A stretch of DNA of 42,052 nt from an uncultured Bacteroidales bacterium (GTDB taxonomy: Bacteria; Bacteroidota; Bacteroidia; Bacteroidales; Bacteroidaceae). The position numbers and the translations under genes are program-made. Positions 3,327-19,859 of this stretch are shown one piece after another. The notes under the pieces were generated by a model that made no database searches, was not told the origin of the DNA, and was given only the letters and a program-made list of their open reading frames with translations. The stretch spans positions 1 through 42,052 of the forward strand of contig CACZSQ010000102.1 of the NCBI GenBank assembly GCA_902783885.1. Reading direction: 5' to 3'. How positions within the stretch are numbered: position 1 is the stretch's first letter; each line of letters starts with the position of its first letter.

Positions 3327-3331
3327 AACGG

Positions 3332-3379
3332 GTCGTGAGGTTGTGAGGTTGTGAGGTTGTGAGGTTGAGAGGTTGTGAG
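3332..3379. repeat. 8-bp tandem repeat, 6 units, upstream of DUF2207 copy 1
   Basis: Six consecutive 8-base units, mostly GTTGTGAG on the plus strand, begin five bases upstream of the copy-1 start codon (read on the minus strand). They occupy most of the 72-base gap between the two DUF2207 genes. The same unit is expanded to 16 copies upstream of the paralogue. Confidence 0.9.
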
Positions 3380-3398
3380 GAATACTTCTCTTTATCGG

Positions 3399-5363: not shown

Positions 5364-5368
5364 AACGG

Positions 5369-5496
5369 GTTGTTAGGTTGTGAGGTTGTTAGGTTGTGAG
5401 GTTGTTAGGTTGTGAGGTTGTTAGGTTGTTAGGTTGTTAGGTTGTGAGGTTGTTAGGTTGTGAGGTTAATAGGTTGTGAGGTTGTTAGGTTGTTAG
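5369..5496. repeat. 8-bp tandem repeat, 16 units, upstream of DUF2207 copy 2
   Basis: Sixteen contiguous 8-base units alternate between GTTGTTAG and GTTGTGAG, with one degenerate unit GTTAATAG at 5465-5472. The array starts five bases from the DUF2207 start codon and its far end encodes the last residues and stop codon of the glycosyltransferase on the minus strand. Because that stop lies in the outermost units, copy-number change would not alter the glycosyltransferase but would alter spacing to the DUF2207 start. Confidence 0.93.
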
Positions 5497-6357
5497 GTAG
5501 TAGCCGAGTTTGTAGAGCTTGAAGAGGGTGAGGCAGGGGCGCGGTCCTAAGAGGTTGCGGCGTATGGGCCGGTGGAAGAGTTTGTAGAACAGGCGCATGG
5601 CCCACGTGAGATGGCATCGCTGCAGCCGCTGGGCGGCTGTCGCCACGCCACTGTAGGTGTCCATCCGGCCTTGCAGACCACGGAGGGTGCGCAGGGCGGT
5701 CTCGGTCTTTGCGAGGAAGACGGCATTGGGTTCCAAATCCATGTGCAGCAGGGGGTTGTCGATGTGGAGGATGGGGATATGTCTGCGCTCCAGGTCTGCG
5801 CCGAAGAGGGCGTCCTCGTAGCCGTAGTCGCGGCATTGCTCGTCGAAGCGGACGGACAGGAAGAGGTCGCGCTGCACGAGGAGATTGAAGGCTGAGAGCT
5901 GGCGATGGGGATGGCGGCTGCGGTCACGGGCTGAGCGGTGGCGGTCGGCGGCGCGCTCGTAGGCATAGCGCAGCGTGGCCTCGGGGCAGGGGTTGACGAC
6001 CGGCGTCAGCAGTCCCCCGCAGACGACGGCGGCCTCGCGGGCGGCCTCGACATAGGCCTGCAGCGAGAAGGAGGGGGGCACCTCGGCATCGCAGTCGATG
6101 AACAGGAGCCACTGCCCACGGGCTTCTGCGGCCATGCGGTTGCGATGGGCGGCACGGCCGGCATTGGCGCTATAGCGGAGCACGCGCACAGAGGGCAGGC
6201 TTTCCACGGCCGTAAGCCAGGCGGCACCCGAGGGTGAGGCATCGTCGCCCACGAGGATCTCGGCTTCTACGCCCTCGCGCACAGCTAAGGCGTGGACATC
6301 TGCCACGAGGCGGCGGGCATCGTAGTCGAAGGTGGGGATGAGGACGGACAGCTTCAT
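5485..6357 (-). CDS. Glycosyltransferase family 2 protein
   Basis: This 290-residue cytosolic or membrane-associated glycosyltransferase has the GT-A fold of family GT2 and would transfer a sugar from a nucleotide-sugar donor. Seen are the N-terminal beta strand SVLIPTFDYD, the nucleotide-binding GDDASPSG, NAGRAAHRNRMA, the metal-binding DxD-type motif FIDCDAEV (about residues 90-97), and an acidic ED pair in RDYGYEDALFGADL that probably holds the catalytic base. There are no obvious transmembrane segments. The start codon overlaps the stop of the upstream epimerase by four bases (ATGA), so the two are translationally coupled. The C-terminus (GYYLTT) is encoded by an 8-bp repeat array. Acceptor and donor cannot be told from sequence. 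Confidence 0.85.
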   Translation of the reverse strand: MKLSVLIPTFDYDARRLVADVHALAVREGVEAEILVGDDASPSGAAWLTAVESLPSVRVLRYSANAGRAAHRNRMAAEARGQWLLFIDCDAEVPPSFSLQAYVEAAREAAVVCGGLLTPVVNPCPEATLRYAYERAADRHRSARDRSRHPHRQLSAFNLLVQRDLFLSVRFDEQCRDYGYEDALFGADLERRHIPILHIDNPLLHMDLEPNAVFLAKTETALRTLRGLQGRMDTYSGVATAAQRLQRCHLTWAMRLFYKLFHRPIRRNLLGPRPCLTLFKLYKLGYYLTT

Positions 6358-7353: not shown

Positions 7354-7381
7354 CAGCCGCAAATCAAAAAATACCGATAGA

Positions 7382-8344
7382 ATGGGATTTTTCAATATCT
7401 TCTCAAAGAATAAAGAACAACAGCGGGAGACGCTCGACAAAGGCTTGGAAAAGACAAAGGAGAGTTTCTTCGGCAAGCTGACGCGCGCCGTGGCCGGCAA
7501 GAGCAAGGTCGATGACGATGTGCTCGACGACCTCGAAGAGGTGCTGGTGACATCGGACGTTGGCGTGGATACAACCCTGAACATCATCAAGCGCATTGAG
7601 GAGCGCGCGGCCCGCGACAAATATGTGGGCACGGGCGAGCTCAACAGCATCCTGCGCGAAGAGATTGCCGCGCTGCTGACAGAGAACAACAGCGGCGACA
7701 CTGAGGGCTACCAGATTCCCGAGGGCAAGAAACCTTACGTGGTGATGGTCGTGGGCGTGAACGGTGTCGGCAAGACGACCACCATCGGCAAGCTGGCCTG
7801 GCAGTTCAAGCAGGCCGGACTGAAGGTGATGCTGGGCGCTGCGGACACGTTCCGTGCTGCCGCCGTGGAGCAGATTGCTATCTGGGGCGAGCGCGTGGGC
7901 GTTCCCGTGGTGAAGCAGCAGATGGGCAGCGACCCCGCGAGCGTGGCTTTCGACACGCTGTCGAGCGCCGTGGCCAACGACATCGATGTGGTGCTCATCG
8001 ACACCGCCGGGCGACTGCACAACAAGAAGGGCCTCATGGACGAGCTCTCCAAGATTAAACGCGTGATGCAGAAAGTGGTTCCCGATGCGCCGCACGACGT
8101 GATGCTGGTGCTCGACGGCTCCACCGGACAGAACGCCTTTGAGCAGGCCAAGCAGTTCACAGCTGCCACAGACGTCACGAGTATGGCCATCACCAAGCTC
8201 GACGGCACTGCCAAGGGTGGGGTGGTGCTGGGTATCTCGGACCAGTTCAAGATTCCCGTGCGCTACATCGGCCTCGGCGAGGGCATGGAAGATTTGCAGC
8301 CCTTCAACAGGAAAGAATTTGTCAACAGCCTCTTCGGCGAGTAA
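7382..8344 (+). CDS. ftsY: Signal recognition particle receptor FtsY
   Basis: A 320-residue SRP receptor GTPase that docks ribosome-SRP complexes at the inner membrane for co-translational insertion. The N domain runs over about residues 20-100 and the NG GTPase follows, with G1 GVNGVGKTTTIGKLA, AADTFRAAAVEQ, G3 DTAGRLHNK, G4 TKLDGTAKGG, and the C-terminal GLGEGMEDLQPF. The short N-terminus (MGFFNIFSKNK) lacks the long acidic A domain of the E. coli protein, which is usual for Bacteroidota. The frame is open upstream, but those residues lie across the promoter, so the ATG at 7382 is preferred. A REP-like element begins two bases after the stop codon. Confidence 0.97.
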   Translation: MGFFNIFSKNKEQQRETLDKGLEKTKESFFGKLTRAVAGKSKVDDDVLDDLEEVLVTSDVGVDTTLNIIKRIEERAARDKYVGTGELNSILREEIAALLTENNSGDTEGYQIPEGKKPYVVMVVGVNGVGKTTTIGKLAWQFKQAGLKVMLGAADTFRAAAVEQIAIWGERVGVPVVKQQMGSDPASVAFDTLSSAVANDIDVVLIDTAGRLHNKKGLMDELSKIKRVMQKVVPDAPHDVMLVLDGSTGQNAFEQAKQFTAATDVTSMAITKLDGTAKGGVVLGISDQFKIPVRYIGLGEGMEDLQPFNRKEFVNSLFGE

Positions 8345-8346
8345 AT

Positions 8347-8389
8347 AAGACTCTCCCTCCGCCCTCCATATCAGGGAGGGAGCGGTTAC
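8347..8389 (-). repeat. REP-like element, copy 1 (inverted, non-coding)
   Basis: Read on the minus strand, this 43-base segment matches the copy at 8478-8520 without gaps at 38 of 43 positions. It contains the CTCCCT stem arm and GC-rich tail GGCGGAGGGAGAGTCTT. It lies just after the ftsY stop and, with its partner, forms an inverted pair around the rimO start. Its short stem is weakened here (CTCCCT opposite TGGAG). Confidence 0.8.
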
Positions 8390-8447
8390 TGAACAAGAAA
8401 AGAACAAGAATGATTGTAATTTTCGCGAGAGTAATATACAACAGGAA

Positions 8448-9824
8448 ATGAAGCAAAAAGATAGCAGACAGCCACAAGTAACTGCTCCCTCCCTAACAGG
8501 GAGGGCGGGGGGAGAGTCTTCTGTTGGGCTCGAGTCTTCCATTGATTTGCTTACCCTGGGCTGTTCCAAGAACCTGGTCGATAGCGAGCGACTGATGGCG
8601 CAGCTGCGCCAGGCCGGATTCCGCGTGCAACATGATCCCGAGGTCGCGGAGGGGGACATCTGTGTGGTGAACACCTGCGGCTTCATCGGCGATGCCAAGG
8701 AAGAGAGCATCAACGTGATTCTGGAACAGGGACAACGCAAGGTGGATGGGAACTTGAAGAAGCTCTATGTAATGGGCTGTCTGTCACAACGCTATCTGAA
8801 AGAATTGCAGGACGAAATACCCGAGGTGGACGGCTGGTACGGCAAGTTCGACTGGCCAAGACTGCTCGAGGACCTCGGTCGGAAATGGGACGATAAGCTG
8901 GTGCCCGGCCGCACGATAACAACTCCCTCGCACTACGCTTACGTCAAGATCTCCGAGGGCTGCAACCGCCACTGTTCCTACTGTGCCATCCCCCTCATCA
9001 CGGGCGCACATGTCAGCCGCCCGATGGAGGAAATCCTGGAGGAGGTGCGCCAGTTGGTGGCCATCGGCGTGAAGGAGTTCAACGTGATTGCGCAGGAACT
9101 GACGTTCTATGGCGTGGACCTCTACCACCGCCGCGCGATAGCTGAGCTCATCGACCGCATGGCCGACATCGAGGGCGTGGAGTGGATTCGCCTCCACTAC
9201 GGCTATCCGGCAGACTTCCCCTGGGAGCTGCTGCCCGTCATGAACCGGCACAGCAACATCTGCCGCTACCTGGACATCGCACTACAGCACATCAGCGACA
9301 CGGTGCTCACGGCCATGCGCCGCCATATCACGAAGGAGGAAACTTATGCCTTTGTGGAACGCCTGCGAAAGGAGGTGCCCGGCATTCATCTGCGCACGAC
9401 GCTGATGGTGGGGCACCCGGGCGAGACAGAGGATGCTTTTGAGGAGCTGCTCGCCTTCACGCGGTGGGCCCGCTTCGAGCGCATGGGCGCCTTCGCCTAC
9501 AGCGAGGAGGAGGGAACTTACAGTGCAGAGGCTTACGCCGACGACATCCCCGACGAGGTGAAGCAGGCGCGCCTGTCGAAACTGATGCGGGTGCAGCAGC
9601 GCATCTCCTCGGAAGTTCAGGAGGCCAAGGTGGGCACCGTGCAGCGCGTCATCATTGACCGCACAGAAGGAGACTACTATGTGGGGCGCACGCAGTACGA
9701 CTCGCCCGAGGTGGACCCGGAGGTGCTCCTGCACACCGGCAGCAACACGCTGGAAGTAGGGCGCTTCTACGATGTGAGGATTGACAGCGCCGACGATTTC
9801 GACCTCTATGGAACAGCACTTTAA
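8448..9824 (+). CDS. rimO: Ribosomal protein S12 methylthiotransferase RimO
   Basis: This 458-residue radical-SAM enzyme adds a methylthio group to an aspartate of ribosomal protein S12. The order is the UPF0004 domain with cysteines in LGCSKNLVDSE, NTCGFIGDAKEES and MGCLSQRY; the radical-SAM cluster motif CNRHCSYC; and a C-terminal TRAM domain (from about VQRVIIDRTEGDYYVGR). The N-terminus is about 30 residues longer than homologues, which start close to IDLLTLGCSKN. The extra part includes TAPSLTGRAGGES, translated from a REP-like element. No other ATG, GTG or TTG precedes the conserved core usefully, so the ATG at 8448 is kept. An HU gene follows 30 bases later. Confidence 0.96.
   Translation: MKQKDSRQPQVTAPSLTGRAGGESSVGLESSIDLLTLGCSKNLVDSERLMAQLRQAGFRVQHDPEVAEGDICVVNTCGFIGDAKEESINVILEQGQRKVDGNLKKLYVMGCLSQRYLKELQDEIPEVDGWYGKFDWPRLLEDLGRKWDDKLVPGRTITTPSHYAYVKISEGCNRHCSYCAIPLITGAHVSRPMEEILEEVRQLVAIGVKEFNVIAQELTFYGVDLYHRRAIAELIDRMADIEGVEWIRLHYGYPADFPWELLPVMNRHSNICRYLDIALQHISDTVLTAMRRHITKEETYAFVERLRKEVPGIHLRTTLMVGHPGETEDAFEELLAFTRWARFERMGAFAYSEEEGTYSAEAYADDIPDEVKQARLSKLMRVQQRISSEVQEAKVGTVQRVIIDRTEGDYYVGRTQYDSPEVDPEVLLHTGSNTLEVGRFYDVRIDSADDFDLYGTAL
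8478..8520 (+). repeat. REP-like element, copy 2 (inside rimO)
   Basis: This 43-base element contains the hairpin CTCCCT-loop-AGGGAG and a GGCGGGGGGAG tail. It is in-frame within the rimO N-terminus, where it encodes APSLTGRAGGE. It is the inverted partner of 8347-8389 and is related to the copies in batD and batE. Confidence 0.85.
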
Positions 9825-9854
9825 CCAAAAAGAAATATACAAATACGGTAATCT

Positions 9855-10142
9855 ATGAATAACAAAGAGTTTATCTCAGCGTTGGCACAACAAGAGGGGC
9901 TCACGGCACGCGACACACAGATGCTGGTGAACCACCTTGTGGCTGAGCTGACCAGCCAGTTCGAGAGCGGCAATATCCTGACCGTGCAGAACTTTGGCCA
10001 GTTTGAAGTGAAGAAGAAGCTGGAGCGCGTGGTGGTGAACCCCTCATCGGGCCAGCGGATGCTTGTGCCGCCAAAATTGGTGCTCGGATTCAAAACCTCA
10101 GCTCAGTTGAAGAGCCGTCTGCAGAAAGGAGGTGAGGCATGA
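9855..10142 (+). CDS. HU/IHF-family DNA-binding protein
   Basis: A 95-residue protein of the HU/IHF fold, expected to dimerise and bend DNA in the nucleoid. Visible are the N-terminal helices (NNKEFISALAQQEGLTARDTQMLVNHLVAELTSQ), the beta-arm segment LTVQNFGQFEVKKKLERVVVNPSSGQRMLVP, and the C-terminal helix. NPSSGQRM corresponds to the usual NPxTG arm tip. The length matches the family (90-100). Its stop overlaps the start of the next gene, a larger HU-like protein, by four bases (ATGA), so the two are coupled and might form a heterodimer, which is inference. rimO ends 30 bases upstream, so transcription may continue from there. Confidence 0.92.
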   Translation: MNNKEFISALAQQEGLTARDTQMLVNHLVAELTSQFESGNILTVQNFGQFEVKKKLERVVVNPSSGQRMLVPPKLVLGFKTSAQLKSRLQKGGEA

Positions 10143-11296
10143 GCGAACAGAAACTGACTCCCGTTGACATCGCCAGCGGCCTCTCCCGCCGTGCGAGTGT
10201 CCCCTTGCGCTATTCCGAAGATTTCGTGCGCTCCTTCTTCAGAGCTATTGAAGAGGGACTTGTTCATGATAATGTGGTCAAAGTGAAGGGCTTTGGCACG
10301 TTCAAGACTGTGAGCGTTGATCCGCGTGAGAGCATCGATGTGAACACTGGTGCCCGCATAGAGATTGCGGGGCACGCGAAGGTGAGCTTCACGCCCGATG
10401 CTGCCCTGCGCGATGCTGTCAACAAACCCTTCCTGGAGTTTGAGACGGTCATCCTGGACGAGGCTACCGACACGGCTGCCATGGAGTCGCTCGATGAGAT
10501 TCCCGTAGCTGTCGTTGCCGAGCCCGTAGCCGAGAAGCCCGCAGCCGAGAAGCCCGTAGCCGAGAAGCCCGCAGCCGAGAAGCCTGCAGCCGAGCCTGCT
10601 CCCGTGAAGGCCGTAGCCGAGCCTGCAGCCGAGATACCCGCAGTCGAGAAACCCGTAGCCGAGAAGCCCGTAGCCGAGAAGCCCGTAGCCGAGAAGCCCG
10701 TAGTCGAGAAACCCGTAGCCGAAAAGCCCGCTGCCGAGCCTGCTCCCGCAAAGCCTGCCGAGAAGAAGACCGCAGCAGCCCTGGTAGCAGACAAGCCTGC
10801 CGCCACGACAAGCACGACTGCTCCCGTGGCCGAGAAGAAGACCGCAGGCGCCCAATCCGGAAAGAGCACCGCCCACGCGCTCTGCTATATCCTCACAGCC
10901 CTGCTCTTCATGCTCATCGGCTATATCATTGCCTACTACTGGCGCCCCGTGGAATTGCCCGACTTCAGCGTGAAAGAGAGTCAGGAGCAGGTAATTCCCG
11001 CCGAAGAGGAGCCGGAACCCGAGACACCGGCCGTGGAAGCACAGCCCGCGAAGCCCGCCATCCCCGCCGAGACCCGCGACTATCCGCAGGTGGAAGGCGG
11101 CGAGTACTGGATTGTTGGCGTTGAGGGTACAGAGGTGATGAGGCCCGGCAAGACATTGCTGAACTTCTCCCTGCAGTACTATAAGAGCAAGGACTTCGTG
11201 AACTATATCTGCACGATGAACGATATCAAGAATCCTGATATCGTGCCCCTTGACATGGAACTGAAGATGCCCAAACTGCTAAAGAAAGAGCAATAA
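10139..11296 (+). CDS. Membrane-anchored HU-like protein with LysM-like C-terminal domain
   Basis: A 385-residue protein with an unusual order. Residues 1-98 form a complete HU-type domain (VKVKGFGTFKTVSVDPRES, VNTGARIEIAGHAKVSF). Residues 124-232 are a linker of repeated AEKP(V/A) units. A single membrane helix lies at about 246-268 (LCYILTALLFMLIGYIIAYYW), an acidic proline-rich spacer follows, and residues 322-380 resemble LysM (GKTLLNFSLQYYKSKDF, NDIKNPDIVP, LKMPKL). With the HU part in the cytosol the C-terminus would face the periplasm, where LysM domains bind peptidoglycan. A chromosome-to-wall tether is therefore possible, but this is inference. It is coupled to the small HU gene upstream, and moxR follows after 33 bases. 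Confidence 0.85.
   Translation: MSEQKLTPVDIASGLSRRASVPLRYSEDFVRSFFRAIEEGLVHDNVVKVKGFGTFKTVSVDPRESIDVNTGARIEIAGHAKVSFTPDAALRDAVNKPFLEFETVILDEATDTAAMESLDEIPVAVVAEPVAEKPAAEKPVAEKPAAEKPAAEPAPVKAVAEPAAEIPAVEKPVAEKPVAEKPVAEKPVVEKPVAEKPAAEPAPAKPAEKKTAAALVADKPAATTSTTAPVAEKKTAGAQSGKSTAHALCYILTALLFMLIGYIIAYYWRPVELPDFSVKESQEQVIPAEEEPEPETPAVEAQPAKPAIPAETRDYPQVEGGEYWIVGVEGTEVMRPGKTLLNFSLQYYKSKDFVNYICTMNDIKNPDIVPLDMELKMPKLLKKEQ
10520..10753 (+). repeat. 15-bp coding repeat (AEKPV/AEKPA) in the HU-LysM linker
   Basis: About a dozen near-identical 15-base units of the type GCCGAGAAGCCCGTA, some degenerate, encode the AEKPV or AEKPA pentapeptide. Length variation between strains is expected because each unit keeps frame. 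The open frames on the opposite strand with GFSAT repeats are shadows of this array. Confidence 0.85.
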
Positions 11297-11329
11297 CAAG
11301 AATAGTAACCAAATAAATCAATAGAAGCA

Positions 11330-12325
11330 ATGGCAGAATCCATTGATATTCGCGCATTAAACGAACTTATCGAGCGCCAAAGCGCTTTCGTCACAAACCT
11401 GATGACGGGTATGGACCAGACGATTGTCGGCCAGCGTCATCTCGTAGAATCCCTGTTGATTGGCCTGCTCTCTGACGGCCACGTCCTTCTCGAAGGTGTG
11501 CCGGGCTTGGCCAAAACCCTCGCCATCAAAACCCTGGCTCAGCTGATTGACGCCAAGTTTAGCCGTATTCAGTTCACGCCCGACCTGTTGCCGGCCGATG
11601 TCACCGGAACCATGATCTATTCCCAGAAGGACGAGAAATTCATGGTGGAGCAGGGCCCCGTGTTCGCCAACTTTGTGCTGGCCGATGAGATCAACCGTGC
11701 CCCCGCCAAGGTGCAGAGTGCACTGCTCGAGGCAATGCAGGAGCGCGAGGTCACCATCGGCAAGCAGACCTTCCAGCTGCCGTCGCCCTTCCTCGTGCTG
11801 GCAACACAGAACCCCATCGAACAGGAGGGCACGTATCCACTGCCCGAAGCGCAGGTGGACCGCTTCATGCTGAAGGTGGTTATCGACTACCCGAAGCTCG
11901 ACGAGGAAATGAAGATTATCCGCCAGAACATCGGCGGCGAGAAAGTGGCCGTGCGCCCCGTGCTCTCCACGAAGGAGATTGTGGAGGCCCGCGAGGTGGT
12001 GCGTCAGGTCTATCTCGACGAGAAGATTGAGCGCTACATCGCCGACATCGTCTTCGCCACGCGCTATCCCGAGAAGTATGACCTGAAGGATATCAAGGAC
12101 TATATCGAGTTCGGCGGCTCACCCCGCGCCAGCATCAATCTGGCACTGGCAGCACGCGCCTACGCCTTCATCAAACGTCGCGGCTACGTCATCCCAGAGG
12201 ATGTGCGCGCTGTGGCCCACGATGTGCTGCGCCACCGCATCGGGCTCACCTACGAGGCCGAGGCCAACAATATCTCGAGCGAGGAAATCATCTCCAAGAT
12301 TCTCAACAAGGTGGAAGTGCCTTGA
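11330..12325 (+). CDS. MoxR-type AAA+ ATPase of the Bat operon
   Basis: A 331-residue cytosolic AAA+ ATPase of the MoxR subfamily, thought to act as a chaperone working with von Willebrand A (VWA) proteins. Visible are Walker A EGVPGLAKTLAIKTL, Walker B FVLADEINRAPAKVQSALLEAMQE, the sensor region ATQNPIEQEGTYPLPEAQVDRF typical of MoxR, and the C-terminal lid with GGSPRASINLALAARAYAF. Length is normal. The gene is followed 32 bases later by a DUF58 protein and then by Bat genes, the classic Bacteroidota order. It probably acts on the VWA proteins BatA and BatB or on the DUF58 protein, by analogy with characterised MoxR-VWA pairs. Confidence 0.95.
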   Translation: MAESIDIRALNELIERQSAFVTNLMTGMDQTIVGQRHLVESLLIGLLSDGHVLLEGVPGLAKTLAIKTLAQLIDAKFSRIQFTPDLLPADVTGTMIYSQKDEKFMVEQGPVFANFVLADEINRAPAKVQSALLEAMQEREVTIGKQTFQLPSPFLVLATQNPIEQEGTYPLPEAQVDRFMLKVVIDYPKLDEEMKIIRQNIGGEKVAVRPVLSTKEIVEAREVVRQVYLDEKIERYIADIVFATRYPEKYDLKDIKDYIEFGGSPRASINLALAARAYAFIKRRGYVIPEDVRAVAHDVLRHRIGLTYEAEANNISSEEIISKILNKVEVP

Positions 12326-12357
12326 TGGCCGTTTAACGTTTAGCGTTTCACGTTTCA

Positions 12358-13227
12358 ATGGAAACATCTGAGATTCTTAAGCGTGTCCGGCAGATAGAAA
12401 TCAAAACCCGAGGGCTCTCCAGCAATATCTTTGCGGGAGAGTACCACTCGGCGTTCAAAGGGCGTGGCATGGCCTTCAGCGAGGTGCGAGAGTACCAGTA
12501 CGGCGACGACATACGCGACATTGAATGGAACGTCACGGCCCGCTTCAACAAACCTTATATCAAGGTTTTCGAGGAGGAACGCGAGCTGACGGTGATGCTT
12601 CTGGTGGACGTCAGCGGTAGTCTGGATTTCGGCAGCGCCGTGCAGACTAAACGGGACATGGTCACTGAGATTGCCGCCACGTTGGCCTTCAGCGCCATTC
12701 AGAACAACGACAAGATCGGGGTCATCTTCTTCTCGGATCATATCGAGAAGTTTATCCCGCCCAAGAAGGGCCGCAAGCACATCCTCTACATCATACGCGA
12801 ACTGCTGGATTTCAAGCCCGAGAGCCAGCGGACGGATATCCGCCAGGCGGTGGAATATCTGACGCAGGTTATCAAGCGCCGCTGCACATGCTTTGTGCTC
12901 AGCGACTTCATTGACGAGCGCGACTTCCGCCAGGCGCTGACAATCGCCAACCGCAAGCACGATGTCGTGGCCATTCAGGTGTATGATCGCCGCATTGCTG
13001 AGTTGCCGAATGTGGGGCTGATGCGCGTGCAGGATGCTGAGACGGGCCATCTGCAGTGGGTCGATACGAGCAGCAGCGCTGTGCGCAAGGCTCACAGCCA
13101 GTGGTGGAACCAGCAGATGAATCATCTCAACGACACGTTTACCCGAAGCAATGTCGATTACGTGAGCGTCCGCACGGACCAGGATTATGTGGTCGCCCTG
13201 CGCAACCTGTTTGCACAGAGAACATAA
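12358..13227 (+). CDS. DUF58 domain-containing protein (VWA-like)
   Basis: A 289-residue DUF58 protein, the standard partner of MoxR ATPases. Seen are the family segment FAGEYHSAFKGRGMAFSEVREYQYGDDIRDIEWNVTAR (split over residues 22-60), then a VWA-like core with the metal-site motif LLVDVSGSLDFG at about 80-91 (DxSxS), and KIGVIFFS. No transmembrane helix is evident, so it is probably cytosolic, perhaps membrane-associated. It lies between moxR and a membrane protein of the Bat operon with small gaps. The biochemical role is not established. The conserved neighbourhood supports a complex with MoxR. Confidence 0.92.
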   Translation: METSEILKRVRQIEIKTRGLSSNIFAGEYHSAFKGRGMAFSEVREYQYGDDIRDIEWNVTARFNKPYIKVFEEERELTVMLLVDVSGSLDFGSAVQTKRDMVTEIAATLAFSAIQNNDKIGVIFFSDHIEKFIPPKKGRKHILYIIRELLDFKPESQRTDIRQAVEYLTQVIKRRCTCFVLSDFIDERDFRQALTIANRKHDVVAIQVYDRRIAELPNVGLMRVQDAETGHLQWVDTSSSAVRKAHSQWWNQQMNHLNDTFTRSNVDYVSVRTDQDYVVALRNLFAQRT

Positions 13228-13243
13228 ACGACTCGTTTGTTTT

Positions 13244-14341
13244 ATGAAAAGATTATTTGAGAATACAATCATAGGAGCGTTGCTTTTCATCTTGCTCGGC
13301 CTGTTCCCGTTGTCAGCCCTTGCACAAGTCGTCTTCGAGGCCCGTCTGGACACGATGGTGATGCTCGTGGGCGAGCAGCGAGAGCTGACGCTGGACGTCA
13401 CCTGCGGTGCCAAGCAGAAGCTGAAGATGCCCGACTTCCGTCCGGAACAGCCTCTGGCGGACGAGGTGGAAATCGTGGAGCTCTTAGCCACGGATACGAC
13501 GTTCCTGGACGAGGGAAACCGAATGCAAGTCCTGCAGCGATACACCATCACGGCATGGGATTCTGCCTTCGTGCTCCTGCCACCATTCTCGGTTGAAGTG
13601 GATGGTAAAGCGTATAAGTCTAAAGAGTTGGCTTTGAAAGTGCTAACGCTTGACGTGGACACGGTTCACACTGACCAGTTCTTCCCGAATAAGGACATCC
13701 AGAACAATCCTTTTTCGTGGGACGACTGGAAGCCTGTTCTGTGGTTCTTAGGCATTAATCAGCTGTTGGCTCTGATTCTGCTGTGGCTCTATAGTCATTG
13801 GCGCCAGAACAAGCCGCTGATACAAATCATACGACGCAAGCGTAAGTTGCCCCCTCACCAGGTGGCAATGAATGAGATTGAGCGTATCAAGGGCGAGCGC
13901 AAATGGGCCGAGGAGGACAGCAAGGAATACTATACCCAACTCACCGACACCCTGCGCAATTATATTCACGAGCGCTACGGCTTCAACGCGATGGAGATGA
14001 CTTCATCGGAAATCATTGAGCGGCTGCTGCAGGAACAGGACGAGACGGCGCTTGCCGAACTCCGCCAGCTGTTCCAGACCGCTGACCTCGTGAAGTTTGC
14101 CAAATATACGACGATGATCAACGAGAACGATGCGAACCTCGTCAGTGCCATAGATTTCATTAACCAGACGAAAGTGGAGGTGGACCCCAACCTGCCCGAG
14201 GAAGAGGTCATCATCCCCGAAGAGGTGAAGCAGATTCAGGCACGCTCGCTTACCGTGAAGATTGTCATGGGCGTGATGGCTGTCGTCGCGTTGGTGGCCA
14301 TCGGCTATGCTCTCTATCTCGCTGTTGACTTAATCCGATAA
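13244..14341 (+). CDS. Bat operon membrane protein (BatD/DUF4381-like)
   Basis: A 365-residue protein found at this position in Bacteroidota Bat operons. It has a signal peptide (ending about PLSALAQ, residue 28), a periplasmic beta-rich domain to about 165, a membrane helix at about 175-195 (VLWFLGINQLLALILLWLY), a cytoplasmic helical region (KLPPHQVAMNEIERIKGERKW, DTLRNYIHERYGFNAMEMTSSE) resembling DUF4381, and a second membrane helix at the C-terminus. The start was moved to the ATG at 13244, which gives a clean signal peptide; the longer frame overlaps the DUF58 gene. The exact role is unknown. It probably links the cytosolic MoxR/DUF58 pair to the BatA/B complex. batA starts four bases after its stop. 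Confidence 0.8.
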   Translation: MKRLFENTIIGALLFILLGLFPLSALAQVVFEARLDTMVMLVGEQRELTLDVTCGAKQKLKMPDFRPEQPLADEVEIVELLATDTTFLDEGNRMQVLQRYTITAWDSAFVLLPPFSVEVDGKAYKSKELALKVLTLDVDTVHTDQFFPNKDIQNNPFSWDDWKPVLWFLGINQLLALILLWLYSHWRQNKPLIQIIRRKRKLPPHQVAMNEIERIKGERKWAEEDSKEYYTQLTDTLRNYIHERYGFNAMEMTSSEIIERLLQEQDETALAELRQLFQTADLVKFAKYTTMINENDANLVSAIDFINQTKVEVDPNLPEEEVIIPEEVKQIQARSLTVKIVMGVMAVVALVAIGYALYLAVDLIR

Positions 14342-14345
14342 TAAT

Positions 14346-15344
14346 ATGCAATTAGCCAATCCATATTTCCTGCTCCTGCTCCTGCTGCTGATACCCTATG
14401 TGCTTTGGTATCTCTTGCGCAGTCAGGATAGCGAGCCGAGGCTGCAGGTGTCCTCGACGCTGGCATTTCGCCATGCGCCCACCACGTGGAAACTGTGGCT
14501 CATTCATGTGCCTTTCCTGTTGCGCTGCCTGGCCTACGTGATGATTGTCATCGTGCTCTGCCGTCCGCAGACCAGCAACTCGTGGAGCGACCGTACTGTC
14601 GAGGGCATTGATATTATGCTGTGTATGGATATCTCCACCTCGATGCTGGCCGAAGACCTGCGCCCCAACCGCATCGAGGCTGCCAAGAAAGTAGCATCGG
14701 AGTTCATATCAGGGCGACCCAACGACAACATCGGTTTGACGATATTCTCGGGCGAGAGTTTCACGCAATGCCCCATGACCACCGATCATGCCGTGCTGCT
14801 GAACCTGTTCAACAATGTAAGTTGTGCCATGGTGCAGCGCGGCATCATGGAGGACGGCACAGCCATCGGTATGGGACTGGCCAATGCCATCTCCCGCCTT
14901 AAGGACTCGAAGGCCAAGTCGAAAGTCATCATCCTGCTGACCGATGGCTCCAACAATGCGGGTGACATCAGTCCGCTCACTGCGGCAGAGATTGCAAAGA
15001 GTTTCGGCATCCGCGTCTATACCATTGGCGTCGGCACAAATGGGCAGGCCCGCTATCCCATGACGGTGGCAGGCCACGTTCAGTATGTCAACATCCCCGT
15101 GGAAATCGATACGAAGACGCTGGCCTCCATAGCCGGAACCACGAATGGTGAGTTCTACCGTGCCACCGACAACAGCAAGCTACGCGAGGTGTATCAGGAA
15201 ATCGACAAGCTGGAGAAAACGAAGATGAATGTGAAGGAGTACAGCAAGCGCTACGAGGCATTCCTGCCCTTTGCCTTGGCCGCCTGTCTGCTCCTGCTCG
15301 TAGAGCTCCTGCTGCGCGAAACCATCCTGAAAAAACTGCCCTAA
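14346..15344 (+). CDS. batA: BatA, von Willebrand factor A-domain membrane protein
   Basis: A 332-residue inner-membrane protein with a VWA domain. Two N-terminal hydrophobic segments (FLLLLLLLIPYVLWYLL and FLLRCLAYVMIVIVLC) precede the VWA domain (about residues 85-270), which carries the metal-ion site CMDISTSMLAEDL, TIFSGESF, and the TDGSNNAG loop. A final membrane helix (FALAACLLLLVELLL) lies near the C-terminus. BatA is one of the Bacteroides aerotolerance proteins; in B. fragilis mutation of this operon affects aerotolerance, but the biochemical activity is unsettled. It probably pairs with the following BatB VWA protein. Length and topology are typical. Confidence 0.93.
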   Translation: MQLANPYFLLLLLLLIPYVLWYLLRSQDSEPRLQVSSTLAFRHAPTTWKLWLIHVPFLLRCLAYVMIVIVLCRPQTSNSWSDRTVEGIDIMLCMDISTSMLAEDLRPNRIEAAKKVASEFISGRPNDNIGLTIFSGESFTQCPMTTDHAVLLNLFNNVSCAMVQRGIMEDGTAIGMGLANAISRLKDSKAKSKVIILLTDGSNNAGDISPLTAAEIAKSFGIRVYTIGVGTNGQARYPMTVAGHVQYVNIPVEIDTKTLASIAGTTNGEFYRATDNSKLREVYQEIDKLEKTKMNVKEYSKRYEAFLPFALAACLLLLVELLLRETILKKLP

Positions 15345-15378
15345 ATAATCATTGTTCATTCTTCATTAACATACTGCT

Positions 15379-17097
15379 GTGTTTAGATTCGAGAATCCCA
15401 TATATTTGTACTTCCTGGTCATTATTCCGCTGTTGGCCCTCTTGCACTACGGAACAGATCTTTTGCGACGCAGACGCCTCCGTGCTTATGGAGAAATAGC
15501 ACTGCTGAACCCCCTGATGCCCGATGTGTCGCGCTGGCGCCGCGAACTGAAGTTTTGGCTCGTGAACATCGCGCTGGCAATGATGATTGTCTGTCTGGCT
15601 CGGCCGCAGTACGGCACAAAGATAGATACTCGCACGCGCAAAGGCATCGAGGCTATCATCGCTGTAGATGTGTCGAACTCAATGTTGGCAGAAGACGTGT
15701 CGCCCAACCGTCTCATGAAAGCAAAGCTTTTGATTAGCAGCCTGGTGGATAATATGGTTGACGACAAAATCGGACTGATTGTCTTTGCCGGCGATGCCTA
15801 TACGCAGTTGCCTATCACCAGCGACTATGTATCGGCGAAGATGTTCCTCGACAATATAGACCCCAGCATGATTGCTGTTCAGGGAACTGATATCGCACGC
15901 GCCATCGGCCTGGCTACCCACAGCTTTACGCAACAGGAAGGCGTGGGACGTGCCATCTTCGTCATCACCGACGGCGAGGACAACGAGGGTGGGGCAGTGG
16001 AGGCTGCCCGTGAGGCTGTCAAGAAGGGGATGAAGGTTTATGTGCTTGGCATAGGCTCACCCGAGGGAAGCCCCATTCCTATGCCGGGAATGAACCGCTA
16101 CATCACCGACCGCGCCGGCAATACTGTCATCACGAAACTCAACGAAGATATGTGCCGCGAGATTGCCCAGGCTGGCGAGGGTGCTTATATCTATGTGGAC
16201 AACAGCTCTTCGGCGCAGTCGGCACTGCAGAAGCACGTGGACAAGCTGGCGAAAGCCGATATGGAACAGACGCTCTACAGTGAGTTCGACGAACATTTCC
16301 GCGACTTCGCGTGGGTGGCGCTGGTGCTGCTGCTTATCGATGTCCTGCTGCTGGCCCGCAAGAACCGCGTTCTCGATCGCGTGAAGCTGTTCCGCCCAAA
16401 GACGGAAACCGGGGGCGTGGCCGCCGTTGCTCTGCTGCTGCTGCTCTTCACCGTGGCTACGGCTGCACAGGCGCAGAACAAGAACGACCGCTATTTCGTC
16501 CGTCACGGCAATCGCTTCTACCGCGACAGCCTTTATACGAAGGCGCAGGTGGACTATCAGAAGGCCATCGAGAAGGACAATACGAATCCCGTGGCCCACT
16601 ACAACCTCGGCAATGCCCAACTGATGCAGGGCCAGCCTAAGGACGCGATGAAAAGCTATGAGACGGCCGCACGGATGCAGCGCGACAAGTTGCGTGGTTC
16701 ACAGATTTATCATAATATGGGCGTCATACTCCAGAGCCAGAAGCAGTACAAGGAGGCTATCGATTGCTACAAGAACGCTCTGCGACGCAACCCCAAGGAC
16801 GATGAAACGCGCTATAACCTGGCTCTCTGCCGCTATTTGCTCAAACAGAACCAAGACCAGCAGAACCAGGATCAGCAGAACCAGGATCAGCAACAGCAAG
16901 AACAACAGCAGCAACAACAACAGCAACAACAGGATCAACAAAATCAGCAACAACAGCAGCAGGAACAGCCCAAAATGTCACAGGAGAATGCCGAGCAGTT
17001 GCTGAAAGCTGCTCAGCAGGAAGAGAAGCAGACGCAGGATAAAATGCAACGCGCTCAACAGCAGCCGCAAAAGAGACAACTTGAGAAACAGTGGTAG
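15379..17097 (+). CDS. batB: BatB-BatC fusion (VWA domain plus TPR and Gln-rich tail)
   Basis: A 572-residue protein joining two normally separate Bat proteins. Residues 1-335 are BatB: two membrane segments, the VWA domain with AVDVSNSMLAEDVSPNR and TDGEDNEGG, and a membrane helix (VALVLLLIDVLLLA). A second hydrophobic segment, about 346-367 (AVALLLLLFTVATAAQAQ), looks like the former BatC signal peptide. It is followed by TPR repeats (AHYNLGNAQLMQGQPKDAMKSYE and the next two) and a Gln-rich region to a conserved-looking C-terminal tryptophan. The start is GTG at 15379: MFRFENPIYLY matches BatB N-termini and no ATG fits. The frame is open throughout, with no stop or restart at the junction. 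Confidence 0.9.
   Translation: MFRFENPIYLYFLVIIPLLALLHYGTDLLRRRRLRAYGEIALLNPLMPDVSRWRRELKFWLVNIALAMMIVCLARPQYGTKIDTRTRKGIEAIIAVDVSNSMLAEDVSPNRLMKAKLLISSLVDNMVDDKIGLIVFAGDAYTQLPITSDYVSAKMFLDNIDPSMIAVQGTDIARAIGLATHSFTQQEGVGRAIFVITDGEDNEGGAVEAAREAVKKGMKVYVLGIGSPEGSPIPMPGMNRYITDRAGNTVITKLNEDMCREIAQAGEGAYIYVDNSSSAQSALQKHVDKLAKADMEQTLYSEFDEHFRDFAWVALVLLLIDVLLLARKNRVLDRVKLFRPKTETGGVAAVALLLLLFTVATAAQAQNKNDRYFVRHGNRFYRDSLYTKAQVDYQKAIEKDNTNPVAHYNLGNAQLMQGQPKDAMKSYETAARMQRDKLRGSQIYHNMGVILQSQKQYKEAIDCYKNALRRNPKDDETRYNLALCRYLLKQNQDQQNQDQQNQDQQQQEQQQQQQQQQQDQQNQQQQQQEQPKMSQENAEQLLKAAQQEEKQTQDKMQRAQQQPQKRQLEKQW
16846..16968 (+). repeat. CAG/CAA glutamine-codon repeat in batB-batC
   Basis: A run of CAG and CAA codons, with AAC and GAT interspersed, encodes a Gln/Asn/Asp tract (about residues 490-530). 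It separates the TPR domain from the C-terminal helix. BatC proteins often have charged or polar low-complexity tails here. Confidence 0.85.
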
Positions 17098-17134
17098 AGC
17101 TCTATCACCCGTCTTTACCAATTCTTCAAATACA

Positions 17135-19015
17135 ATGAGAACGATATATAAAATTCTATTAGCGCTAATACTAACCGCACCCTCACTGATAGGGTGGGCT
17201 GGGGGAGAGGTGGTCAACATCCGTGTGATGGCGCCCTCTGAGGTGATTCAAGGAGACCGCTTCCGCGTGTCCTACGAAGTGAATACGGCTGATATCGATG
17301 ATTTCAAGGTCGGCTCTTTCGAAGGACTTGTTGAGCTGTACGGTCCCAGTCGCAGTCAGTCATCGAATATATCGATTGTCAATGGCCGTACAACATCGTC
17401 CAGCTCCGTCACCTTCACCTATACGCTGACGACCGATCAGGCCGGCACTTTCCATATCCCAGCTGCTACGGTCGTCGTGGACGGTAAGGCCGTGAAGTCC
17501 TCATCGCCTAAGATTACGGTTCTACCCGGAGGCAGCGCTTCAGGAGGCCAGGGAGGCTCACAGGCTCATGGACAGAACCCCGCGCAGAGCCATAGCCAGC
17601 AGGCAGACCGTATGAGGACACAGGACAGCGGTGACAGGATTACCAGCAAGGATATCTTCATTGCTGTGACAGCGTCCAAGAAAAGGGTCTTTGAACAGGA
17701 AGCCGTGCTGCTGACCTACAAACTCTATACGCTTGTCAACGTCAGTGAGATGTCGGGTAAGATGCCCGAGCTCGACGGCTTCCACGTGCAGGAAATCAAC
17801 CGCCAGCGCCAGCCAGAGCTGAAGATGGAACATTACAACGGGCGCAACTACGGCACTGTTGTCTGGAGCCAGTATGTGGTATTCCCGCAGCAGACGGGCG
17901 AGCTGAAGATTCCAGAAATCAAGTTCGAAGCCGTGGTGGTGCAGCAGAATCGCAATATAGACCCGTTCGATGCTTTCTTCCGCGGTGCCTCTATGCTGAC
18001 CGAGGTCAAGAAAGTGGTTATGGCCCCCGCTGTGGTGCTGCATGTTGATCCGCTGCCGACGCCCAAACCCGCGAACTTCTCAGGAGCTGTGGGCAAGTTT
18101 ACGGTTGCATCTTCTCTCACGCCTCAGCAGCTGAAGGCAAACGATGCCACAACGCTGCGCCTCACTGTCAGCGGAACGGGTAATATGAAACTGATGAATG
18201 CTCCCGAGGTGCAGTGGCCGAAAGATTTTGAGCGCTACGATCCCAAGAGCGAGGACCAGACAAAAATCGGTGCCAGCGGCTCCAGCGGCTCCATGGTCTT
18301 CGACTATATTGCCGTGCCGCGTCATCAGGGCAAGTTTGAACTGCCGTCCGTGGAGTTCTGCTATTTCGACCCTGACGCACGTGAGTATAAGACGGTATCC
18401 TCCGATGCTTACACCATTGAAGTGGAGAAAGGTAAGGGCGGAAACTCTGTAGCCTCCCAAAATTATACAAAGGAGGAGATAGAGATGCTCAACTCGGATA
18501 TTCGCTACATCAAGACTGGCAAGGCGGATTTCATCAATGCTGATGAGGCCTCCCTGCTTGGCACTTCACGAATATGGGCGCTCTATGTGGCTGCGCTGGG
18601 CATCTTCCTTGTCCTGGTGGTGGCTTTCCGCCGCTTCGTCTCGGCTCAGGCTGATGTCGCCGGACGCCGTGGACGCAAGGCCAACAAGGCGGCAACCAAA
18701 CGTCTGAAGACCGCCCGCAAGCTGATGCACAGCGGTGATGCCAATTCCTTCTACGACGAGACGGCACGCGCTCTCTGGGGCTATGTCAGCGACCGTCTGA
18801 ATATGGCTGTGAGCGAGCTCACTCGTGACAATGTGCGTGAGAAACTGGCAGAGCGCGGGGCTACAGCTGAGCTCACGGACCGCTTCATCGGAGCTCTTGA
18901 CGAGTGTGAGTTTGCCCGCTATGCCCCCGGCGATGCTGCTCAGACGATGGACAAGGTCTATTCCGCCGCTGAAGAGGTCATCAACCAAATGGAGGGTGAG
19001 CTGAAAAAGAAATAG
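17135..19015 (+). CDS. batD: BatD, oxygen-tolerance membrane protein
   Basis: A 627-residue protein with a signal peptide, a long periplasmic region of several beta-sandwich domains (from VVNIRVMAPSEVIQGDRF through the repeated PKITVLPGG and VASSLTPQQLKANDATTL segments), one membrane helix at about 480-502 (ALYVAALGIFLVLVVAFRRF), and a cytoplasmic helical C-terminus of about 120 residues. This is the BatD architecture. The ATG at 17135 gives MRTIYKILLALILT as the hydrophobic core. The stretch right after it, APSLIGWAGGE, comes from a REP-like DNA element, so the signal-peptide cleavage region differs from what the ancestral gene probably had. batE follows with a short gap. Confidence 0.92.
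   Translation: MRTIYKILLALILTAPSLIGWAGGEVVNIRVMAPSEVIQGDRFRVSYEVNTADIDDFKVGSFEGLVELYGPSRSQSSNISIVNGRTTSSSSVTFTYTLTTDQAGTFHIPAATVVVDGKAVKSSSPKITVLPGGSASGGQGGSQAHGQNPAQSHSQQADRMRTQDSGDRITSKDIFIAVTASKKRVFEQEAVLLTYKLYTLVNVSEMSGKMPELDGFHVQEINRQRQPELKMEHYNGRNYGTVVWSQYVVFPQQTGELKIPEIKFEAVVVQQNRNIDPFDAFFRGASMLTEVKKVVMAPAVVLHVDPLPTPKPANFSGAVGKFTVASSLTPQQLKANDATTLRLTVSGTGNMKLMNAPEVQWPKDFERYDPKSEDQTKIGASGSSGSMVFDYIAVPRHQGKFELPSVEFCYFDPDAREYKTVSSDAYTIEVEKGKGGNSVASQNYTKEEIEMLNSDIRYIKTGKADFINADEASLLGTSRIWALYVAALGIFLVLVVAFRRFVSAQADVAGRRGRKANKAATKRLKTARKLMHSGDANSFYDETARALWGYVSDRLNMAVSELTRDNVREKLAERGATAELTDRFIGALDECEFARYAPGDAAQTMDKVYSAAEEVINQMEGELKKK
17171..17210 (+). repeat. REP-like element, copy 3 (inside batD signal-peptide region)
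   Basis: This 40-base segment aligns with the rimO copy without gaps. The hairpin here is CACCCT/AGGGTG instead of CTCCCT/AGGGAG: both sides of one pair changed, so pairing is kept. It encodes APSLIGWAGGE in the same reading frame as in rimO. Confidence 0.8.
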
Positions 19016-19046
19016 GGGAGAGTTCATGATTCAACACTTTATTGCA

Positions 19047-19859
19047 ATGAAACTTACAGATAAACTGATACTGGCAATAAGCCTCACCATAGCCCAGGCA
19101 TTTGCACCTTCTCTGATAGGGGCGGGGGGAGCTTCTTCCCTTTGCGCTCAGAATAGGGAGGCGGAGGAAATCTCCAAGGCTGCAGCTGATTCTGCCTATG
19201 CTCAGGAGAACTATTCTGAAGCGGCGCAGATTTACCAGACGCTCATCGATTCTCTCGGAGAGAGCGCCGTGCTCTACTACAACCTCGGCAACTGCTACTT
19301 CCGTCAGGATTCCATTGCCCGCGCCATTCTCAACTACGAGCGAGCCCGGCTCCTGGACCCCACGGATGATGACCTGGCCTTCAATCTCGAGATGGCTCGC
19401 ACGAAAACCGTTGACAAGGTCGCGCCTGCCAATGATATGTTCTTTGTGACCCTCTTCCGCTCACTGGTGCTCTCCATGACCGTGCGCGGATGGAAGATAC
19501 TCGGCATCAGCGCTTTCGTGCTGATGCTCCTTGGCGCTGCTGTCTATCTCTTTGCTCCTGTGCTCACCGCTAAGAAGATGGGTTTCACAGCTGCTGTCCT
19601 TCTGCTCATTATCTGTATATTTGCTAATATAGCTGCTGCCCAGCAACGCAGCCAGGTACAGCATCGCACGGGCGCTATTCTGATGGCGCCCAGCGCCGTG
19701 GTCAAGAGCACACCCAGCGCTTCCGGCACAGACCTTTTCATCCTTCACGAAGGGACACATGTTCAGATTGTTGATGACTCAATGCGCGAATGGGTGGAAG
19801 TGCGGATGAGCGACGGCAAGGAAGGCTGGCTCCAGCGTAACGAAATCGAAGTGATCTGA
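19047..19859 (+). CDS. batE: BatE, TPR and SH3-like membrane protein
   Basis: A 270-residue protein: signal peptide (MKLTDKLILAISLTIAQAFA), TPR motifs (about residues 50-120, YSEAAQIYQTLIDSLGESAVLYYNLGNCYF and the next), two membrane helices (about ILGISAFVLMLLGAAVYLFA and MGFTAAVLLLIICIFANIAA), and a C-terminal SH3-like domain (STPSASGTDLFILHEGTHVQ, EGWLQRNEIEVI). This is the usual BatE layout. An ATG at 19026 would add seven residues; 19047 is preferred because it gives a compact signal peptide, but the choice is open. A REP-like element lies in the cleavage region (APSLIGAGGAS). The stop overlaps the next start by one base (TGATG), coupling it to the PAP2 gene. Confidence 0.9.
   Translation: MKLTDKLILAISLTIAQAFAPSLIGAGGASSLCAQNREAEEISKAAADSAYAQENYSEAAQIYQTLIDSLGESAVLYYNLGNCYFRQDSIARAILNYERARLLDPTDDDLAFNLEMARTKTVDKVAPANDMFFVTLFRSLVLSMTVRGWKILGISAFVLMLLGAAVYLFAPVLTAKKMGFTAAVLLLIICIFANIAAAQQRSQVQHRTGAILMAPSAVVKSTPSASGTDLFILHEGTHVQIVDDSMREWVEVRMSDGKEGWLQRNEIEVI
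19104..19131 (+). repeat. REP-like element, copy 4 (shortened, inside batE signal-peptide region)
   Basis: The bases GCACCTTCTCTGATAGGGG followed by a GC-rich CGGGGGGAG tail match the batD copy, with a three-base (one-codon) deletion. They encode APSLIGAGGA in the same frame as the other coding copies. The hairpin arm is partly degraded. Confidence 0.65.

Follow-up and report, generated by a model that had tools for sequence, protein, structure and literature searches.

Several families of short palindromic repeats are known to enter protein-coding sequence. In the consulted sections of two papers, Rickettsia palindromic elements (RPE) are given as single elements of 105-146 bp, and protein-coding palindromes are also described for Wolbachia (PMC2229807, PMC10969869). 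In Yersinia, a mobile repeat forms part of a signal peptide, and for the RU-2/YPAL and RU-1/ERIC repeats of enterobacteria the same source counts, in its consulted part, 24 annotated loci (PMC2759123). Repetitive extragenic palindromic sequences (REPs) are presented, in the portions of the literature seen, as palindromes of 20-40 nt that occur in inverted pairs, differ in family from species to species and lie mainly between open reading frames (PMC3733652, PMC6006769), REPs within genes having been reported for several species (PMC3733652). Here we describe a REP-like element in 42,052 nt of DNA from an uncultured Bacteroidales bacterium (Bacteroidaceae; assembly GCA_902783885.1, contig CACZSQ010000102.1, positions 1-42,052), in which copies lie in the reading frames of rimO, batD and batE. 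This whole stretch is referred to as the window.

Our preferred reading, to which we assign a probability of roughly 0.6, is that the element belongs to a species-specific REP-like family that is compatible with translation and often arranged as inverted doublets, of the type of REP doublets forming hairpins (REPINs) or bacterial interspersed mosaic elements (BIMEs), and that some cassettes of this family were copied whole between unrelated genes.

The repeat is dispersed and often forms inverted doublets

The sequence-only reading of the window had proposed a genome-wide count as a check on its claim of a repeat, and further copies are indeed present: in the window's own genome (G000, a draft of 2.2 Mb in 124 contigs), a core pattern with at most 2 mismatches gave 102 matches, compared with 6 for the reversed pattern used as a control. 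Within the stretches fetched around these matches, allowing at most 3 mismatches and requiring the left half of the arm, we counted 116 distinct arms, two of which (L084, 2496 and 2498) are probably chance matches. When arms lay close together, 43 of the 46 pairs were divergent, which is the arrangement of two nearby inverted REPs that defines REPINs. The repeat is therefore real, but its unit is often an inverted doublet rather than the single element that had been described. Across the genus, 56 of 61 genomes (G000 included) match the core pattern, many of them merely at control level; examples that lie well above the control are G027 (97 vs 5), G023 (69 vs 5), G055 (67 vs 19) and G024 (52 vs 6).

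Two types of shoulder flank the arms, and the commonest letters next to the stem are GGT[GA]ACCGC... and ...GAGAGTC. As judged from the consensus letters, no GTAG or CGTC tag stands at the foot of the hairpin; no motif search was made. Surplus tail pieces such as GGGGGGAGAGTCTT were seen next to complete arms at L022, L024 and L027.

The whole rimO doublet folds at -88.9 kcal/mol, compared with -43.3 kcal/mol for shuffled versions (z -10), and single arms fold no better than shuffles (z -0.22, -0.81, -0.34 and +0.15). A paired stem change between the rimO and batD copies (CTCCCT/AGGGAG to CACCCT/AGGGTG) had been interpreted as evidence that the hairpin is under selection. In a covariation test over 134 rows, some of them off-register, this batD column pair showed three double changes that still pair, with a shuffle p of 0.10, and the lowest p among the 14 stem column pairs tested was 0.006. 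The case for hairpin selection comes from a single copy and finds no clear support in the wider set. Two of the six outer column pairs (commonest letters T-G and C-A) do co-vary, with p under 0.0002 and 0.0006, and we take these columns to mark probable subfamilies, such as the variant with 3 additional nt described below. The loop triplets in both arms of a doublet are equal in 16 of the 40 doublets that could be parsed (of 43), where 6.3 are expected (p 5e-5); in the window's rimO doublet they differ.

Sense arms are read predominantly in one frame

The strand and frame of the gene behind each of the 116 arms were called with a codon-usage score trained on the window's genes. A sense gene follows 48 arms and an antisense gene 53, while 14 are unclear and 1 is too close to the contig end. 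Reading is open over the arm in 47 of the 48 sense arms; 38 of the 48 encode xPSLxGRAGGES or a similar peptide, and 5 encode PLPxREGxGGES or alike, a +3-nt variant whose end phase is identical. Given that two phases are stop-free, the use of the GGES phase by 43 of the 48 has a binomial p of 1.4e-8 against one half. A further arm, outside the scored sense arms, uses the second stop-free phase and precedes a glycosyltransferase-like frame (L013; family assigned by eye).

Among the 43 doublets, 15 have an ATG between the arms and 17 are open throughout, 5 of these at a gene border (L016, L077, L082, L088, L089), 10 within one gene and 2 without an assigned upstream side; the remainder comprises 1 with GTG/TTG only, 4 without a start and 6 that were not assigned. 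About 20 of the 43 (the 15 with ATG and the 5 gene-border open frames) contain the start codon of the next gene, for example those of ProC, ValS, PurH, PyrI and Pth. The left arm starts at most 5 nt from the upstream stop in 17 of the 23 gene-border doublets that could be scored. With 48 of 116 arms before a sense gene, 47 of them open, and 10 of 43 doublets intragenic, the repeat is not mainly extragenic as REPINs are. The N-terminal placement claimed earlier thus holds for many gene fronts, but the repeat also lies inside genes and often contains the start codon. At one locus (L003:680-2716:-), CbiG and a tetrapyrrole methylase form a single open frame that runs through a doublet.

The peptide stands in front of conserved domains

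Nineteen of the 20 scanned proteins with the peptide in front gave a domain match. NCBIfam (E at most 1e-10) identified ProC, PyrI, IlvN/H, ValS, PurH, GlnS, RfbB, Lgt, a citramalate or isopropylmalate synthase and Ddl, several of them with scores under the curated cut-off, in at least some cases because the end of the stretch cuts the frame. Pfam identified a POR-type oxidoreductase subunit, an AIR-synthase-like protein, Pth, a HAD hydrolase, a response regulator with PglZ, GH92, GH43, a PD40-repeat protein and an MFS transporter, and gave nothing at threshold for a protein that by eye is HslR-like. The family domain starts directly after the peptide in ProC (residue 22), PyrI (25), ValS (26), PurH (24), GlnS (31), Ddl (27) and Pth (37). 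For GlnS, Lgt and Ddl of G000, the coding arm is present and a left arm was not recognised. Intragenic arms lie between domains in MutS2-, FeoA-FeoB-, MiaB- (a single arm), acyl-ACP-thioesterase- and Mfd-like proteins and also behind an ABC domain; 9 of 10 proteins with intragenic arms gave a domain match. An invertible promoter acting as a phase switch was set aside, because among the start regions with arms on either side are those of valS and pth, presumed essential genes that could hardly be switched off.

Relatives have both empty and occupied sites

RimO was matched in 61 of 61 genus genomes, and loci were obtained for G000 and 29 relatives (L040-L068). None of these 29 has the rimO peptide, and in most of them the ftsY stop abuts, overlaps or shortly precedes the rimO start. 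In a second set, 7 of 35 rimO loci (L230, L233, L234, L235, L239, L243, L249) have lineage-specific versions of the repeat. By eye, all 8 REP-bearing rimO loci (the window and these 7) have both arms at the ftsY-rimO junction, the left arm being decayed in L239 and L249. On a RimO tree of 55 rows (65 minus 10 second-set rows that duplicate first-set rows), the distribution of the 8 REP rows takes 6 changes, and starred branches force 3 or more of these; among 500 label shuffles, 20 were equally low, so that the REP label is somewhat clustered on the tree. The BatD peptide was found in 2 of 14 relatives in one set and at 5 of 41 loci in another, and the BatE peptide in 1 of 13 and 3 of 38, with some species common to both sets. 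The comparison of RimO, BatD and BatE N-termini suggested by the sequence-only reading therefore shows the peptide missing from many relatives, and the refuting conditions that this reading had set for itself did not overturn it.

For 27 more genes, relatives were sought in G048, G027, G010 and G055 and 60 loci were read, the comparison leaving out genes for which no locus was delivered, among them ProC, SecX, GH92, IorB and lipoproteins. Among the rows listed, native N-termini without the peptide were found for PyrI, PurH, PurM, RfbB, CimA and the response regulator; in CimA of G055, the arms are located upstream of the start. ValS, GlnS, GH43, HAD, HslR, Pth, Lgt and some others have the same or a different repeat family at the matching site in at least one relative. 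The GH43 of G027 has a single arm, located behind the signal peptide. As with RPE-like elements, the insert is in frame in conserved proteins and missing from orthologues. Other repeat families, with TSRQPLPS..GG.. peptides, were seen at L158 and L146 (G048) and L155 (G055), at the same N-termini (HslR-like, IlvN) as in G000.

A signal-peptide cassette is shared by unrelated genes

Among the matches listed in 139 genomes, 7 places have the leader MRTIYK-LLALILTAPSLIGRAGG, with variations, at full length. With its start codon, signal peptide and coding arm, it sits on batD (G000, G121, G073), on batE (G048, G121, G114) and on a NanM-like gene (G086; Pfam NANM, E 1.4e-22). The NanM-like cassette and two batD cassettes also have left arm and 5' leader in common, except for a 29-nt insertion in the NanM-like left arm. 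The window's batD leader and the batE leader of G048 agree at 96% over 49 nt, and Ddl and an IorB-like gene of G000 are 94% identical over 36 nt across the start codon and leader. The rimO interior is new sequence relative to most relatives. A strict pattern for a second signal-peptide leader gave 1 match in 61 genomes and was too narrow for use.

The bacteria that carry the repeat are known chiefly from the rumen. Of the 80 candidate stretches obtained by scanning named genomes, 41 encode a BatD relative, and the titles of these stretches are mostly Bacteroidaceae, Prevotellaceae, Prevotella or Bacteroidales, many of them ruminant-derived. A KduI-like protein carries the leader MKKILLLAVLIAPSLTGRAGGESS or a similar one at L278 (G146) and L298 (G114); it looks like an addition to an enzyme normally without a leader, because the common region starts at residue 7-11 in solved KduI chains.

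Copies of the repeat in the window

The window's arms were scored against the arm consensus, with 4136 other 70-nt stretches on both strands and 20 shuffled strands as background. The best background score was 20 and the shuffled strands reached at most 27, so even the weak batE copy is real. The three copies named by the sequence-only reading, and their single frame, are borne out by translations that match at each place and by the scores in Table 1; its statement that the batE copy is one codon short also stands, since alignment to the consensus needs a gap of exactly 3 nt. It overlooked the left arm of the rimO doublet, which forms with the right arm an inverted repeat (I1) of 89% complementarity, the two being 86 nt apart. 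No insert like the rimO interior is present in the 29 relatives compared. The window's batD leader aligns with batD and NanM-like cassettes from other species. Some bases line up with a left arm at the window's batD in the cassette alignment; the score there is only 12, and this arm is not claimed.

Table 1. Features of the three repeat copies and their host genes in the window.
Feature	Positions	Strand	Description
ftsY	7379-8344	+	Upstream gene, stop adjoins the left arm; Pfam SRP54, SRP54_N
Left (non-coding) arm, rimO doublet	8347-8390	-	44 nt, directly behind the ftsY stop; consensus score 76
rimO doublet interior	8391-8476	+	5' region, ATG at 8448, first leader codons of rimO
rimO, N-terminus apparently REP-supplied	8448-9824	+	Pfam UPF0004 from residue 34, Radical_SAM, TRAM_2
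Right (coding) arm, rimO doublet	8477-8520	+	Translates as ...VTAPSLTGRAGGESS in RimO; score 73
batD cassette	17115-17170	+	5' leader, ATG at 17135, signal-peptide codons MRTIYKILLALILT; left arm not recognisable
batD	17135-19015	+	Pfam BatD
Diverged coding arm in batD	17171-17210	+	Reads TAPSLIGWAGGE; score 56
batE	19026-19859	+	Pfam TPR_2 above cut-off; second in-frame ATG at 19047 opens a signal-peptide-like leader
Decayed coding arm in batE	19104-19138	+	APSLIGAGGA, 3 nt shorter; score 36

Elsewhere in the window, tandem 8-nt arrays of GGTTGTGA/GGTTGTTA occupy 3299-3402 and 5336-5527, on the 5' side of two genes (1386-3326 and 3399-5363) that are related to each other and run on the minus strand.

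Candidate moving enzymes occur in relatives

A search for a REP-associated tyrosine transposase (RAYT), which a REPIN family has in its genome and often next to a REP, had also been suggested. The Y1 transposase profile PF01797 gave no match in G000 in either of two scans, of 21 and 19 genomes; as far as the consulted part of PMC6006769 indicates, PF01797 covers RAYTs only in part, so that this absence is weak evidence. The scan of 21 genomes gave weak matches in 3 of 12 same-genus relatives. In the scan of 19, 12 matched, four of them nearly full length and the others partial, several lying in long RAYT-like proteins. Over both scans, strong matches came from four members of the genus. By NCBIfam, one of two nearly full-length proteins is above the IS200 cut-off and one slightly below, and three long RAYT-like proteins reach 33-49 bits with NF047646, whose cut-off is 80. 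The long RAYT-like proteins (L306, L307, L308, L309, L304, L038) have about 370-510 aa with a large C-terminal part and, by eye, the HuH, WQ and Y..NP motifs listed in the part of PMC6006769 seen. We regard these proteins of relatives as candidates only. At 11 PF01797 loci (10 from the scan of 19 genomes and L038 from the scan of 21), a strict pattern found no arm of this repeat type, and tblastn with five long RAYT-like proteins found no relative in the fetched G000 stretches.

Origin of the doublets

The left arm usually follows the stop of the gene upstream without a gap of note, and the right arm runs in frame into the coding part of the gene downstream, whose protein would thereby gain xAPSLxGRAGGES at its front. 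In about 20 of the 43 doublets, the interior contains a 5' leader, an ATG and then a short hydrophilic leader or a signal peptide, and an arm-derived peptide such as APSLTGRAGGESS would thereby be joined to RimO, ValS or ProC; other doublets, within genes, would be read through. At least some cassettes, which run from left to right arm with 5' leader, start codon and signal peptide in between, were probably copied whole from one gene to another, unrelated one, so that the element could swap the N-terminus of a protein. The arms are predicted to be translated, and a moving enzyme presumably exists. Movement as a unit seems the better reading, though not a proven one, and in at least some cases a unit was probably copied whole. 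It is possible, but we hold it only tentatively, that the doublets are genome-wide mobile N-terminal cassettes with their own 5' leader, start codon and cytosolic leader or signal peptide, which insert at stop/start borders and replace the native start, with the result that unrelated genes, and different species, would trade start sites and export signals. The earlier proposal of a mobile repeat that turns coding at N-termini agrees with our results on dispersal and N-terminal coding (102 core matches, many relatives without the peptide, one dominant frame) and differs from them in three points.

Alternatively, the arms may have been inserted separately around a native start, one behind the start codon or signal peptide and an inverted copy later upstream, perhaps by template switching; hairpin correction would keep the arms alike, the interior would be native, and shared leaders would be due to ordinary recombination. 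Unrelated interiors, the lone ValS right arm and the lone GH43 arm of G027 would all follow, and loop agreement is also expected from correction. We nevertheless consider this route unlikely, since left arm, 5' leader and signal peptide are shared between the NanM-like and batD genes, and since the rimO interior appears to have come with the insert, most relatives having little or no ftsY-rimO 5' region. It is improbable that the repeat is an ordinary non-coding REP/REPIN family with a RAYT, whose coding copies are leftovers of purifying selection and whose frame is a stop-codon accident. The doublet build with inverted arms, the two shoulder types and the long RAYT-like proteins in several relatives are as such a family would have them, but one of two stop-free phases is used by 43 of 48 sense arms, start codons lie inside doublets, and G000 yielded neither a PF01797 match nor, in its fetched stretches, a relative of the long proteins. 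Least weight is given to a doublet kept for its RNA, in which the paired arms would form a stem of about 40 bp that encloses the start region of the cistron downstream, as an insulator or processing site, with the peptide as a by-product: the one doublet tested folds very stably (z -10) and left arms lie directly behind upstream stops, but stem covariation is weak, one-armed loci exist and in-gene doublets have no cistron border.

Several observations weigh against the reading that we prefer. A conserved interior between copies is a REPIN feature, and the 43 doublets lack it, their interiors being unrelated apart from matches of 12-23 nt, mostly in the shoulders next to the arms; copies of a single element would not be expected to look like this. 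The full-length signal-peptide cassette was found at just the 7 places noted above, and two adjacent genes account for six of these. Some loci have one arm: ValS has only the right (coding) arm in G027 and both in G000, and GlnS of G000 has a coding arm with no left arm recognised. The signal peptide of the G000 GH43 may be native, because it is alike in G010, which is without the repeat, and loop agreement could be explained by correction between arms. Five of the 48 sense arms fall outside the frame (L025-1535, L070-1618, L076-1738, which has a stop, L078-1601 and L096-1604), and the census includes the 14 unclear arms, the one too near a contig end and the 6 unassigned doublets. No transposase was linked to the repeat by PF01797 or by tblastn on the fetched stretches of G000, which is only a draft, 84.6% complete.

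If the preferred reading is correct, about 20 or more conserved genes of a single bacterium owe their present start sites to a very small repeat and apparently remain functional. It could bring an export signal to a new gene, which would be a directly testable route for the gain and swapping of signal peptides. It would also be a warning that predicted gene starts in this bacterial group may be partly repeat-derived.

Comparison with known systems

Among the titles and abstract openings listed by searches of the open-licence PMC literature, none describes this element for Prevotella or Bacteroidales. As far as searches of that literature show, the many start codons within doublets, the one dominant genome-wide frame and the signal-peptide cassette on unrelated genes are new. 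The doublet build and inverted arms are like those of BIMEs and REPINs in the consulted part of PMC6006769. Unlike the REP, BIME and REPIN families with a RAYT, as far as they are described there, many arms here lie in coding sequence in a single frame, the interiors lack conservation and no RAYT was linked to the repeat. Compared with RU-2/YPAL and RU-1/ERIC in the part of PMC2759123 seen, the present repeat has dozens of arms in one genome, mostly in one frame and in conserved genes, and a cassette on unrelated genes. The closest precedent, judged from the consulted sections of PMC2229807 and PMC10969869, is provided by the protein-coding palindromes of Rickettsia: like these and the Wolbachia palindromes, the element is a dispersed palindromic repeat found in frame within many protein genes, but unlike RPE its short arms form inverted doublets, which often lie at gene junctions, contain start codons and can end a signal peptide.
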